From Medicago truncatula (taxonomy: Eukaryota > Streptophyta > Magnoliopsida > Fabales > Fabaceae), in contig NC_053047.1 in assembly GCF_003473485.1 (NCBI RefSeq), positions 30,118,972 to 30,182,971 of the forward strand: 64,000 bases of DNA, written 5' to 3'. How positions within the stretch are numbered: position 1 is the first letter of the stretch; every line of letters begins with the position of its first letter. The position numbers were made by a program, and so were the translations under genes. This document shows positions 42 through 63,031 of the stretch, in pieces. The notes under the pieces were generated by a model. That model saw only the letters and a list, made by a program, of their open reading frames with translations, made no database searches and was not told the DNA's origin.

Positions 42-93
42 TACTGTAATACCTATTTTTTTTTTTTTTTTGAAAGATACTGTAATACCTATT
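42..93. repeat. Poly(T)GAAAGA micro-insertion with 16-bp target duplication
   Basis: Two copies of tactgtaatacctatt (42-57 and 78-93) flank a 20-nt insert made of 14 T followed by GAAAGA. It lies in an SPPL intron. On the - strand it reads TCTTTC-A(14), like a retroposon 3' tip plus poly(A). Confidence 0.7.
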
Positions 94-310
94 GTACTCC
101 TGAAAATACATCTAAAGGAAATTAAATGTTAATCTCTTGTTTCCTTAGATTTAAGTGTGTCATTTTCAAACCTGAATGCTATGCTGTAGAATGTTTGAGT
201 TTACACGATGCTTTCTATTATATCCTTTTCAACGGAATTTTTCAACATTTCCTCCATGATGTTAGGTTTGTTCCACGTGTAGAAGAAACTAATTTTGTTT
301 TCCTGTGCAG

Positions 311-3139
311 GTGGTTCAAGCATGCTAGCGAATCATACGTTAAATTGCCCTTCGTAGGAGCTATCTCATACCTGACTTTGGCTGTTACTCCATTCTGTAT
401 AACATTTGCCGTTTTTTGGGCAGTTTATCGAGACAAATCATTTTCCTGGATTGGTCAAGATATACTTGTAAGGATAAACTTTTCTCATCAGTCTTGAGTT
501 CTTATCATCTCCTCTTCAGATATATCATGTAGACAATATAAATTTAAAGCAAAGCATTATTTTTCCTTTATTTATCTTAATTTTTCAAAGGGGGAAGGGT
601 TTAGTTGTGTTTTACATAGTAAGTTATAGTCGAATTGATTGGGAGCACCCAAGTTCAACCCCTGACTGGAACAATCCTTAGCCAAATTTTACCTACCTCC
701 CAGCCGAACACCGGATTACTAGGCTTTTATCCCCTAGGAATCGAAGAGATCCATTTGTCTCCAGTTCTACTATATACCATAAGGGAAGAATGTGCTTGTG
801 GTGAAAGCAATGTTTGTAGAACCATTTTCCAGAATGTACTACATCATAATCATAATATTTCTTATCACAATTGTATTAGAGTTAATAAACTTTTCAATAA
901 AAACACACACACACAAACTCATGTTGTTTATATTGTTTTAGATTTTATACTTGTAATGATGACGGCTAGGTGAGTGTCAATTTAATGGCTATTTCTTTTG
1001 TCATTTAATCTAACAGGGAATTACGCTGATTATTACAGTTCTGCAGATCGTACATGTGTCTAATCTCAAGGTATTTATTAAAGCTTACATAATCATTGTA
1101 CTGTGGCTTTATGTCAAACTTGTTAAGATTGTTGAATTCGGTTACTTTTCTGTGGTAGCCAGTTTTTGAAGCACTTTGATATTTACTTACTGTTTTGATT
1201 CAACAATTATTTTAAGCATCTTATGTACGAAATAACTGAACTAGAAAATGTTAAACTTGTGTGTTACACTGCTTCTACTTTTCGCACCTGTTTGTGTCGG
1301 TAAATATTCACATCTACAATTTGTCACATTAGAGTCTGTTATGTCATTAGATGTTCCTTTTATGAATAAATAAGATACTAATGTAATGCTTTGATTATTT
1401 TACAAAATAGGTTGGTACAGTTCTTCTCAGTTGTTCCCTCCTTTACGACTTATTTTGGGTGTTCGTGTCGAAGAAGTTTTTCAAGGAAAGCGTGATGATT
1501 GTGGTTAGTATTACAATTCATTCTAATTCACGATAATGATCGACATTCTATGTTGTTGCTACTTATAATTTTCCTTACATTACACGCTATAGGTAGCCCG
1601 AGGTGATAGAAGTGGAGAAGATGGTATTCCAATGTTACTAAAGTTTCCGCGCATTTTGGACCCATGGGGTGGTTATAGTATTATCGGTTTTGGAGACATC
1701 CTTTTACCTGGAATGCTGGTCGCGTTCTCACTCAGGTTTTATTTCGATCTCTTTTTTCAATTTGTCCCTGCATGTGTTAAGTATATCTTCTTAGACTCAA
1801 GATTCAATTTTTGTAGCGACCGCTCCCAATTTTTATGGATTGGAGTTTTTCAGAGTCTGTTTGGATTGGTTTGTTTGAGTTTGTCTATTGAACTGTTTGG
1901 GAGAGCTTGTAGAAACATTTTATAACATGTCCATAAGCTGTAAGCTGTTTGCAGCTTATATCCCATAAGCTCTCCATAATAGCAAAATGAAAACAGCTTA
2001 TAGTTAACATGAAAATAGTTTGAATTTATTTTCTATTTTGTTACAAAAAATGTTTATGCATAAGCACTTATATGATAAGTACTTATGCTATAAGCGCTTA
2101 ATTAAGTTTCTTATCCAAACAGGGCCTAAGTGAATTTTTGTAATTCACTATTCTAAAAACAAATGGAAGAGCTAGGCTTTAAACTACAGTATTTTTCCAC
2201 TTCAAATTGTCAGTTTTTATGAAAAAGCTTTCCTGATTGACGATACATGTTGCAGGTATGATTGGCTGGCAAAGAAGACCCTTGTAAGTGGATACTTTTT
2301 GTGGGCAATGTTAGCATATGGCTTTGGTGAGAATCAACTTATTGACTCGAGAATTATGCTTTTTTTTTTTTTTTTATACAAACTATATCATAACTAAAAC
2401 ATTAAAATGCATTTTTTGTTGACTTAGAAGTTACATGATGATTGATTGAGCAAATACATACATATGACTTGACTTTTATTCCTAATTTTTTAGGTCTTCT
2501 AATCACTTACGTGGCGCTAAACTTGATGGACGGGCACGGACAACCAGCACTGCTATACATTGTTCCATTTACTCTAGGTAGTTTTTACGAAACAGATCAT
2601 TATTTATAATAATTTTTTATCAAGGAAAGAATGAATTCATTTAGGATCAATGTTTTAAAAATCCAATTGCCTGAAAAAAAAGTGTTTTAAAAACCAAACA
2701 GAACCTTTCGGTTCAATCAATTGAACCGAGAACCAGCCAGTTTGCTGGTTGGTTTGGTCCCTGTTACAATGCAGTCTGGTTGAACAAGGTTTGAACTGCA
2801 GTTGGTTAAGCCAATTTTCATATTTTACATTTTATTTTACTTTTTTATTCGTTTGTTATCCGATTAAACCATGGTTGAACAGATCGAACCATAACCTGAA
2901 GGTCTTACTGGTTCGATCGCTGATCTTGTTTTTAAAACAGTGTTCAGGATGTTTCTGAACAACTTGGAAGTTAAATTGATTATAGTAGGGTGCTCATAGT
3001 TTTATGCATCAATGTAGGGACCATTATTGCATTGGCACAAAAGCGAGGAGAACTAAAGATTTTGTGGAAGAGTGGCGAACCAGAAAGATTCTGCCCTCAT
3101 ATCAGACTCCATAACAGTGGAGAATCAAGCCCCGAATGA
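311..3139 (+). CDS. Signal peptide peptidase-like intramembrane aspartyl protease (3' part)
   Basis: Seven exons: 311-467, 1017-1070, 1411-1503, 1593-1735, 2256-2326, 2494-2577 and 3018-3139 (TGA). All introns are GT..AG and the phases fit, giving the last 240 residues. The first visible exon starts after a cag acceptor, so the N-terminus, including the usual PA domain of plant SPPLs, lies outside the window. SPPLs are polytopic membrane proteases that cleave type II membrane proteins and signal peptides within the bilayer. The three hallmarks are present: YD in LLYDLFWVF (exon 1411-1503), GxGD in IIGFGDILLPG (exon 1593-1735) and the PAL motif in GQPALLYIVPF (exon 2494-2577). The tail (RGELKILWKSGEPERFCPH) matches what I remember of the plant SPPL3/4/5 group; the exact paralogue cannot be decided. 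Introns carry MITEs. Confidence 0.95.
1853..2126. repeat. MITE in SPPL intron (GGCCCTGTTTGG-type ends)
   Basis: The ends gagtctgtttgg and ccaaacagggcc are inverted, and the interior is rich in ataagct/agcttat words. The same end type recurs at 24497, 27892, 30661, 33561 and 50715. The left boundary is approximate. Confidence 0.55.
2651..2940. repeat. MITE-like dispersed repeat with 'ggttcaa/ttgaacc' interior and 'ttttaaaa' ends
   Basis: It starts tgttttaaaaatcc and ends tttttaaaacag. The interior is full of ggtt, gaacc and aaccatggttgaac words. Related copies lie at about 4825-5066 and 17208-17395. It sits in the last SPPL intron. Confidence 0.5.
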
Positions 3140-3340
3140 TATTGTCACTTCAACCTATTTTGATATGTTCTGTCTATGTAAATACATGGCTGGTCTTTTG
3201 AGACACGAAAACAACACTTTCAAAGGCTTAGCAGAATTTTATGAAATAGTTTAGATTCAATATAATGTCTATTCAGAAAGTTCTACAAATCGATAATTAC
3301 TGTGAAACGTGCAGCAGCGGGGTTTAGTCTCAGTGTTTTT

Positions 3341-3377
3341 ACTCTTGATTTTTTTTTTTTGAAACGGACTCTTGATT
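3341..3377. repeat. Poly(T)GAAACGG micro-insertion
   Basis: The 10-bp duplication actcttgatt (3341-3350 and 3368-3377) flanks T(10)GAAACGG, just downstream of the SPPL stop codon. Confidence 0.6.
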
Positions 3378-61615: not shown

Positions 61616-61724
61616 TTAAGACAAGATTACATTAGGGGTCCATTATCTTATTTATTTGTAACACTTTGACCATTTATCTTTATTTTTTCTCATTTAGGTC
61701 CTTTATCTCTCTTAAATTAATAAG

Positions 61725-61893
61725 GTTAAAGTTGGAAGAAAATATAAAAAGCTACTTGAAATAGCTTTTCAAAAAACGCTATAAGCTCATGAAAAAAACT
61801 TGTTACCAAACACGCCACGTTTTCGTCTAACGAGCTTATAAGCTAATCCAACAAGCTATAAGCTAGCTTTTTTGTGTTACTAAACACAACCAA
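61725..61893. repeat. Truncated MITE (right half of the 24497-27888 type)
   Basis: agctacttgaaatagctttt, aacgctataagctcatgaaa, cgagcttataagct and the end gtgttactaaacacaacc parallel 27725-27888. Its outer end is fused to the FAR1 fragment. Confidence 0.6.
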
Positions 61894-62436
61894 AATATCT
61901 AAATGGACTCGAAATTTTGCATTACACCCACATCTTGTTTCATTTTTTGGCTCGCGCTTTCGGGTTTCCATGGTTAACCCCCTATCCTCCCCATTCTGAT
62001 CCCTAACCACTTGGCCCTTACGAACTGAAAATCCCGACGTTCTACCAAACCAAGAGTAGAAAAGATAAGCAACATCCAATCCAACAAATTCATATCTCTC
62101 TACATCAGCCAAGCAAAAATTTTCCAAGTCAATCTTCATTATATCAACCATTTCTTTTATGACAATAGGAATGACTTCATTAGGTTGATCATGTGAACCT
62201 TCAAAAGCATCTGAACTTCCGATGACATCTCCATTGATTTCTTCCGCATTTCTGTTGTTATTACCACATCTTTCATCCTCAAAATCCTGTAACAAGTTAA
62301 TCTTTTAACCTCATGTTGTGTAATTATATAAACCAACAATTAATTTCCAAATTTCACATTTGCGATTACTTACACTGAAAATTCTAGGACCTCCTTGCTC
62401 AAACAGAGGATTCGAAGCTTGTGATCTTCCATCCAT
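61894..62436 (-). pseudogene. Truncated FAR1-domain gene fragment (two exons)
   Basis: Exon 1 (62436-62374, MDGRSQASNPLFEQGG…) ends at a gtaagt donor. Exon 2 starts at 62286 after ttacag, in phase. Exon 2 encodes an acidic linker then VAYLFYSWFGRTSGFSVRKG, QVVRDQNGE and RKREPKNETRCGCNAKFRVH. This matches the FAR1 DNA-binding (WRKY-GCM1-like zinc finger) domain of FHY3/FAR1 and Mutator-derived proteins, with the usual GFSVRK and R.GC.A..RV words. It stops where the MITE begins, before the CHH part of the finger, and no transposase core follows. The intact intron means the piece was not copied from spliced mRNA. It is either captured DNA or a remnant of the pre-insertion locus. Confidence 0.6.
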
Positions 62437-62998
62437 GTATGTGAATACCAACATTTTATATCAATCAGGGTTACGACAACTTGAATAAAACCCAAACATG
62501 TACCATACAAAAACCCAACCAGCATTAATATGCTGCATAATTATACCAACACAAAGGTAAACCATGTCTCTGAATTTCAAACATAGTAGTACTACAACAT
62601 GAATAGGGGCAGATCGATTGTCATTTTCATCAAACTAATAATACCTCCACTATAATCAACAAAACAACCATTTTTGTTTAAACCAAAATGGATTAAGAAA
62701 AAAAATAACAAAAAAAAAAAACATTAAGGAAGATCCAGCATGCAATCCGAAAAACTAATAAATATGAAGTCTTTAAACAAAACATGAGATATGCTAATCA
62801 AAATGGATTCAGAAAAAAGAAAAAAAAAAAGATGGAATCTAGATCCAACATACGATCCGAAAAACTAATACAGATGAAGTTTTTGAAGAAAAAAAACATG
62901 ATTAGATGCCAAAAAATATCTTACTATCTTTAATCTTCAGCTCAGAATAAGCCTCCTACGTATCGATCACTCCTTCATAACTGTTAGATCTCTCCTTC

Positions 62999-63031
62999 AC
63001 AAATGTTTTTTTTTTTTTAAGGAACAAATGT
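62999..63031. repeat. Poly(T)AAGGA micro-insertion
   Basis: acaaatgtt at 62999-63007 and 63023-63031 around T(10)AAGGA. Confidence 0.5.

Follow-up and report, generated by a model that had tools for sequence, protein, structure and literature searches.

Short tip-and-poly(A) insertions between target-site duplications in the genome of Medicago truncatula

Throughout a 64-kb stretch of the Medicago truncatula genome (G000:C6:30118972-30182971, the whole of which is referred to as the window), very small insertions are found that consist of a tip of a few bases and a run of A, bracketed by two copies of a direct repeat of the kind left by a target-site duplication (TSD). This pattern of repeat, tip, A-run and repeat is confirmed as real in this genome, where such tiny insertions, here termed stubs, seem to number in the tens of thousands. 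They were probably formed by target-primed reverse transcription, the machinery of an L1-type long interspersed nuclear element (LINE) having acted on a poly(A) tail and stopped a few bases past it.

Sites were sought in the A-tail orientation as a repeat, a tip, an A-run of at least six and a second repeat. Besides the window, a 264-kb sample (the window plus twenty 10-kb stretches drawn from two contigs) and a 354-kb sample (the same plus a further 90 kb) were used, all from the same genome; genome-wide counts refer to the 430-Mb assembly of 42 contigs, and labels such as L005 denote stretches outside the window. The controls were swapped flanks, in which an upstream flank is paired with the downstream flank of another run, order-3 Markov windows, and the mirror arrangement, read backwards. 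Raw A-run counts from the 264-kb sample and its forward and mirror counts at a score of at least 12 take in tandem arrays. A curated set of 57 stubs was made by hand, by removing eight tandem-array stretches, tips shorter than 2 nt, tips with at least nine T and repeated targets; both-strand duplicates (L004 6316/6330, L016 622/627, L044 863/876), one repeat family entered twice (L014 8496, L020 1226) and ten entries with only A5 remain in it. For the tip composition and flank-copy tests, nine tandem-array stretches were removed instead of eight.

A comparison with randomised sequence, of the kind called for by the original prediction, places the pattern well above both swapped-flank and Markov levels. 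Of the 264 A-runs in the window, 16 reach a repeat score of at least 9, against a mean of 0.45 and a maximum of one with swapped flanks; order-3 Markov windows give 0.1 at this score and none at a score of at least 10, where the real window retains 14, and Markov copies of the window contain no site scoring at least 12. Amongst the 1027 A-runs of the 264-kb sample, 64 score at least 9 (1.5 with swapped flanks) and 42 at least 12 (0.3 with swapped flanks). The structures are directional: at a score of at least 12 there are 42 forward and 12 mirror hits in this sample, with the A-tail adjoining the 3' duplication and the body on the 5' side only, and the mirror hits inside the window are loci that score in the forward direction too. 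Genome-wide, five pyrimidines followed by exactly ten A (YYYYY-A10) are found 7,827 times, compared to 2,175 times backwards; in the sampled DNA, sites with YYYYY and at least seven A number 93 forward and 25 mirror. At least six of 30 isolated A14 runs have the stub structure.

Curated stubs occur at nine per 64-kb window and 25 per 200-kb sample, the latter including one locus read on both strands; as these densities are alike, the window is not special. Extrapolating from the curated subset with A-runs of at least six (n = 47), the 25 stubs in 200 kb correspond to 54,000 per genome, which suggests a total of roughly 50,000. This figure, drawn from twenty stretches of two contigs, is subject to a sampling error in the tens of per cent.

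All twelve sites listed by the original prediction were found when each was read and the window was rescanned without the list. Nine are clear (42, 3341, 12581, 16358, the double site at 22746, 22851, 43503, 47589 and 59474), having exact repeats of 10-16 bp, or repeats of 17-19 bp with one mismatch, flanking a short tip and an A or T run; the other three (9005, 17871 and 62999) proved weak or tangled. The repeat at 9005 is simple-looking, and this locus falls outside the scans for A-runs of at least six. The sites, including three that the list lacked, and the elements used for comparison, for which the name short interspersed nuclear element (SINE) is our own reading, are as follows.

42..93, minus strand: stub, TSD of 16 bp (TACTGTAATACCTATT), tip TCTTTC in the A orientation, A14-16
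2651..2693: extra weak site from the window rescan, not listed previously
3341..3377, minus strand: stub, TSD of 10 bp, tip CCGTTTC, A12
9005..9048, plus strand: weak stub, TSD of 11 bp exact (14 bp with one mismatch), tip CTTTC, only A5 and then AT-rich
12581..12635, plus strand: stub, TSD of 14 bp, tip TCCTT, A21
16358..16403, minus strand: stub, TSD of 15 bp, tip TATTCTTTC, A9
17871..17927, minus strand: complex site, tip TCCCTC, interrupted A-run, within a tandem duplication of 37-40 bp in which the repeat occurs a third time
22746..22785, plus strand: stub, first of two at one target, TSD of 10 bp, tip TCCTT, A15
22776..22820, minus strand: second insertion at the same target, in opposite orientation, TSD of 14 bp, A7
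22851..22895, plus strand: stub, TSD of 17 bp with one mismatch, tip CTTCTT, A8
23264..23473, minus strand: SINE-like element, 17-bp TSD, 3' end GCGAAAGCC-A12
27523..27563, minus strand: weaker stub, not listed previously, TSD of 11 bp, tip TACTCTTC, A-run broken by T
43503..43540, minus strand: stub, TSD of 13 bp, tip CCTTC, A10
47584..47629, plus strand: stub, TSD of 18 bp with one mismatch (13 bp exact), tip GTCAAT, A7
47788..47935, plus strand: SINE-like element, 13-bp TSD, 3' end CTACTTGAC-A9
56475..56520, plus strand: clear stub, not listed previously, TSD of 16 bp exact, tip CTTCC, A9-11
56632..56706, plus strand: tRNA-like SINE of about 70 nt, flanked by two copies of TATGATTYATTTTA
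56708..56757, plus strand: beginning of the paralogue that provides the empty site for 56475, a single target copy with no insert; the 3' flank runs past 56757
59474..59520, plus strand: stub, TSD of 19 bp with one mismatch, tip TACCT, A8
62999..63031, minus strand: borderline stub, TSD of 9 bp, tip TCCTT, A13; a 22-bp tandem repeat overlaps

A search for genome relatives of the SINE at 56632..56706 returned 464 candidates, 40 of which were scored.

The stubs form a discrete size class. With exact repeats of at least 12 bp, the 264-kb sample contains 18 bodies of 4-8 nt and four of 9-14 nt (three of these 22 lying in arrays), together with one 1-nt body inside an array; none has a length of 15-50 nt, and 17 are of 51-600 nt, including SINE-like elements 67-167 nt in length. 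Decoy bodies are near zero below 50 nt and amount to 0.1-0.7 per bin above. The further 90 kb includes a 29-nt body (L036) that is flanked by repeats of 13 bp and terminates in the LINE 3' end TTTTAGCCTCTTC-A; it links the stubs to ordinary retroposons. The proposal that such elements were aborted after copying only the tail needs amending: bodies extend 4-14 nt past the A-run and no pure-A insert is found between exact repeats of at least 12 bp. Weak candidates with tips of 0-1 nt lie at 27502-27525 in the window and at L021 6760.

The duplications are 10-21 bp long, 21 of 39 being of 14-17 bp, in agreement with the length of about 7-20 bp expected of L1-type insertion, and the first base of the repeat is A in 44 of the 57 curated stubs. 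Tips are 5-8 nt long in 41 of the 57. Those preceding A-runs of at least ten are composed of 47% T, 42% C, 6% A and 6% G (72 letters), and 11 of the 20 curated stubs with such runs have tips of C and T only. A tip copied from nearby DNA was rejected by a permutation test: agreement between tips and flanks amounts to 156 where 164 is expected, a value reached by 289 of 300 permutations. Two insertions per target are found at two targets: that at 22746-22820 in the window, and L043:2349-2431, where two stubs in the same orientation share one target, leaving three copies of it. Such double insertions fit an endonuclease that favours junctions between A-tail and target.

The original prediction rightly described the tips as few and alike, and this can be taken further, for they are sequence-specific. 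For TCCTT and CTCTT, which are two of the 32 pyrimidine pentamers, TCCTT-A10 occurs 604 times genome-wide (control 64) and its isomer CTCTT-A10 150 times (control 79), a difference of 4-fold in the raw counts and of 7.6-fold once the control of each is subtracted. The preference for one letter order over its isomer argues for copying from particular RNAs.

Two stubs have an empty counterpart elsewhere in the genome. Downstream of the stub at 56475, a tandem paralogue from 56708 has one copy of the target, followed directly by the 3' flank; an indel of 6 nt lies a few bases past the junction. The L005 stub (2963-3010) lies in one arm of a palindrome, the other arm of which lacks both the insert and the second target copy, and has a 3-nt indel beside the site. 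Non-self matches across the joined site were found for five of the 57 curated stubs: these two are good, that of L020 9791 is not clean, and those pairing L023 with L049 and L043 with L051 are weak. No clean empty site was present in the L012 and L020 paralogues, and a genome search with the L005 site gave matches only downstream of the stub, none spanning it.

The length of the repeat, the A-run beside its 3' copy, the one-sided tip, the mostly A-starting target and the two empty paralogous sites bear out the earlier suggestion of LINE-type target-primed reverse transcription. In the proposed sequence of events, a LINE endonuclease would nick one strand at Y|AAA, and the freed DNA end would serve as a primer from which an RNA is reverse-transcribed, beginning in its poly(A) tail. 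The enzyme would halt, or run out of template, a few bases (mostly 5-8) beyond the tail; the second strand would be cut 10-20 bp away, and the short complementary DNA (cDNA) joined and filled in, to leave the tip and A-run between TSDs. The agent would be an L1-type LINE and the tip a copy of RNA sequence, its length presumably being set by a fixed stop, either RNA that is bound or structured immediately 5' of the tail, or a template 5' end at that point. A block to the enzyme is only slightly preferred over the end of the template as the cause. The unusual aspect is that copying clears the tail only to end a few bases later, and that hardly any intermediates lie between stubs and full SINEs.

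A source for the tips was sought amongst LINE and SINE ends. L013 contains a LINE with a reverse transcriptase domain (PF00078, E 4e-20), which we take to be of L1 type from its RQGDPLSP motif, and the 3' end of which is TTTTAGCCTCTTC-A12; a remnant of such an end, 80% identical to the L013 LINE over 49 bases, lies at 41320-41366 in the window. Other LINE copies and one SINE-like family end in TTTAGCTTCTT(C)-A, further LINE-like ends are TTTGTT-A9 and TTTTTC-A13, and TTTAGCYTCTTC-A7 is found 380 times genome-wide, against none backwards. Members of the SINE-like family lie at L052:1490 (minus strand), L038:1020, L045:2273 and L036:1460-1527, the LINE end being at L013:7254; the family carries TTCGATT, presumably a tRNA box-B-like motif, and its common 3' end makes a SINE/LINE pair possible. 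Polyadenylated 3' ends in this genome are thus pyrimidine-rich, as the tips are; the commonest tips nevertheless differ from them.

The comparison of tips with LINE and SINE 3' ends envisaged by the original prediction yielded few resemblances: the LINE end compared with the tips is TTTTAGCYTCTTC-A, and a TTTAG box stands within five bases of TCCTT with eight or more A at only 49 places genome-wide (control 5), although TCCTT-A10 alone has 604. As the box accompanies so few TCCTT sites, the end of a TTTTAG-box LINE was rejected as the origin of the tip; in the local sample, TTTAG lies 4-9 nt upstream of 12 A-runs, and of 15 in the mirror arrangement, out of 757. The found LINE end and the 5' leaders of SINEs would together seem to account for few tips. 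The LINE-like 3' ends at L013:7170-7266, L021:9140-9235 and L050:2920-3016 have in common a hairpin around GTACATCTTGTGC; on folding, three of four LINE-like ends carry a similar hairpin, two of the four having z of about -2. It was rejected as the stop, being about 40 nt from the tail.

Several of these results weigh against stalled reverse transcription by LINE machinery. A hairpin about 40 nt from the tail cannot be a stop at 5-8 nt, no LINE family ending in the commonest tips was found, and the TCTTC end of the LINE that was found makes up 3 of the first 100 YYYYY-A10 matches listed, against 10 for CTTTC and 7 for TCCTT. Both empty sites are paralogues of only about 80% identity with indels nearby (3 nt at L005, 6 nt in the window), and a looser scan gave a weak 19-nt body with a 9-bp repeat (L014) inside the size gap. 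In the nick-site test, which assumes a TT|AAAA model, C or T precedes the repeat in 74% of 39 stubs but in no more than 34 of the 57 curated ones, and the A-run may lend its last A to the repeat, such that this signal is partly circular and constitutes support, not proof. The isomer preference comes from the two pentamers counted. Finally, in the 354-kb sample a repeat score of at least 9 accompanies 30 of 91 sites with YYYYY and at least seven A, leaving 61 with no repeat; these may be old, or be ordinary RNA ends or background.

It is possible, though not probable, that stubs are instead full-length copies of very short polyadenylated RNAs (UCCUU-An, CUUUC-An), such as the tail remnants of 5'-3' decay. 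The discrete size class with a gap above it would then be expected, the LINE box is found at few TCCTT sites, and TCCTT looks like a fixed left edge: the base before it is T in 395 of 604 cases (65%), close to the 32 of 57 (56%) at repeat ends generally, which would place the left boundary of the family at or beside TCCTT. However, the proposed RNA is hypothetical, none having been seen, and remnants of mRNA would be expected to be very U-rich, since the average Medicago mRNA end is described in PMC4117952 as a YA dinucleotide surrounded by very U-rich sequence, which does not predict the 42% C of tips before A-runs of at least ten. We think it doubtful that full-length copies of RNAs of 4-12 nt plus a tail, an undescribed species with a few favoured sequences such as TCCTT and CTTTC, number in the tens of thousands in this genome.

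An unlikely alternative is that poly(A) alone was copied and that purines were then added to the cDNA end without a template, giving a pyrimidine tip. This would explain the abundance of C and T, and amongst the first 100 YYYYY-A10 matches listed of the 7,827 the order of letters does not depart significantly from random (p 0.7). It is strained by the disparity between isomers genome-wide, and untemplated addition was rejected on the unequal counts of TCCTT and CTCTT.

Repair of double-strand breaks, in which the filling-in of staggered ends leaves a short duplication and filler DNA, is a considerably weaker candidate. Patch-mediated break-repair duplications in plants have short direct repeats and a short insert, as stubs do; poly(A), a direction and a fixed tip, all of which stubs possess, are not expected of them. 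Direct repeats with spacers of 6-60 nt that lack an A or T run do occur in this DNA, spread fairly evenly over spacer length, with 8-18 non-array cases per 6-nt bin. In contrast, non-array poly(A) cases number 7, 19, 8, 1 and 0 for spacers of 6-11, 12-17, 18-23, 24-29 and 30-35 nt, with 13 more at 36-59 nt that are of other make-up where inspected. The even spread of the former sets the poly(A) class apart from a background of short duplications; it is also one-sided, where repair should have no strand direction, and its tips are not the copies of flanking DNA that filler should be. Exact repeats of 18-20 bp with inserts of 10-24 nt and no poly(A), at 56888-56947 in the window, L022:4365-4423 and L015:809-858, are another class, consisting of a short duplication and filler.

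Still less credible is that the tip is the 5' leader of a tRNA-derived SINE, joined by a template jump onto the tail. Single stubs with a TCCTC tip do occur (L005), and of the 707 matches to TYYYYGTGAGCTTAGCTCAGTTGG, a pattern that itself demands Y, the first 100 include TCCCC 48 times, TCCTC 30 times and TCCTT six times; this origin was rejected as the leaders are TCCCC or TCCTC in 78 of these first 100 matches listed, yet neither occurs amongst the first 100 YYYYY-A10 matches listed, where TCCTT is found seven times. Chance, or microsatellite slippage beside accidental repeats, might be imagined in AT-rich DNA with many A-runs, but is refuted by the swapped-flank and Markov controls and by the empty sites, and can effectively be dismissed.

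The stubs have parallels in known systems. They resemble 5'-truncated L1-clade LINEs and SINEs in their TSD and poly(A), and perhaps in nick-site bias, and both SINE-like elements and the 29-nt truncated element are found in the same DNA. Ordinary 5' truncation of LINEs yields a spread of lengths, whereas stubs are separated from longer elements by the gap at 15-50 nt, and their common tips differ from the LINE end found here. The hairpin in three of four LINE-like ends, and the SINE-like family with a LINE 3' end, recall the stringent plant LINE/SINE pairs with 3' hairpins described in PMC3747384; the hairpin here lies about 40 nt from the tail and away from the point at which stubs stop.

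The original prediction knew of no annotation class for these structures, which was too strong a statement, as single human cases are in print. For simple poly(A) or poly(T) insertions in NF1 and other disease genes (one of 18 NF1 cases, and three of 48 listed), the authors of PMC3219598 suggest an origin from an Alu or L1 copy with severe truncation, or from a processed pseudogene. They too are homopolymer inserts, in a set with L1-endonuclease features and tails of 60-178 bp; the Medicago class differs from those described there in being abundant and short, and in having a short, sequence-specific tip. An abundant plant class of this kind is not announced in the titles or abstract openings of the papers listed by the literature searches.

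Other features of the window are a match at 24907-24992 to MIR2617, an Rfam family of microRNA precursors, a tRNA-Gly (gcc) gene on the minus strand at 39145-39215, and tandem repeats of the GGACCAATACCAA type at 16616-17188, which also match one another in inverted orientation.

If most target-primed events in a plant end as stubs, counts of annotated copies greatly underestimate LINE activity, and many poly(A) microsatellites originated in an event to which a date can be given; the tip, short and fixed, then offers a handle on where reverse transcription fails past the tail. Were the stubs instead copies of short RNAs, the retroposons most numerous in Medicago truncatula would measure less than about 30 nt and derive from an undescribed RNA species. 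A scan for repeat, tip, A-run and repeat would make stubs available as presence/absence markers across the genome.

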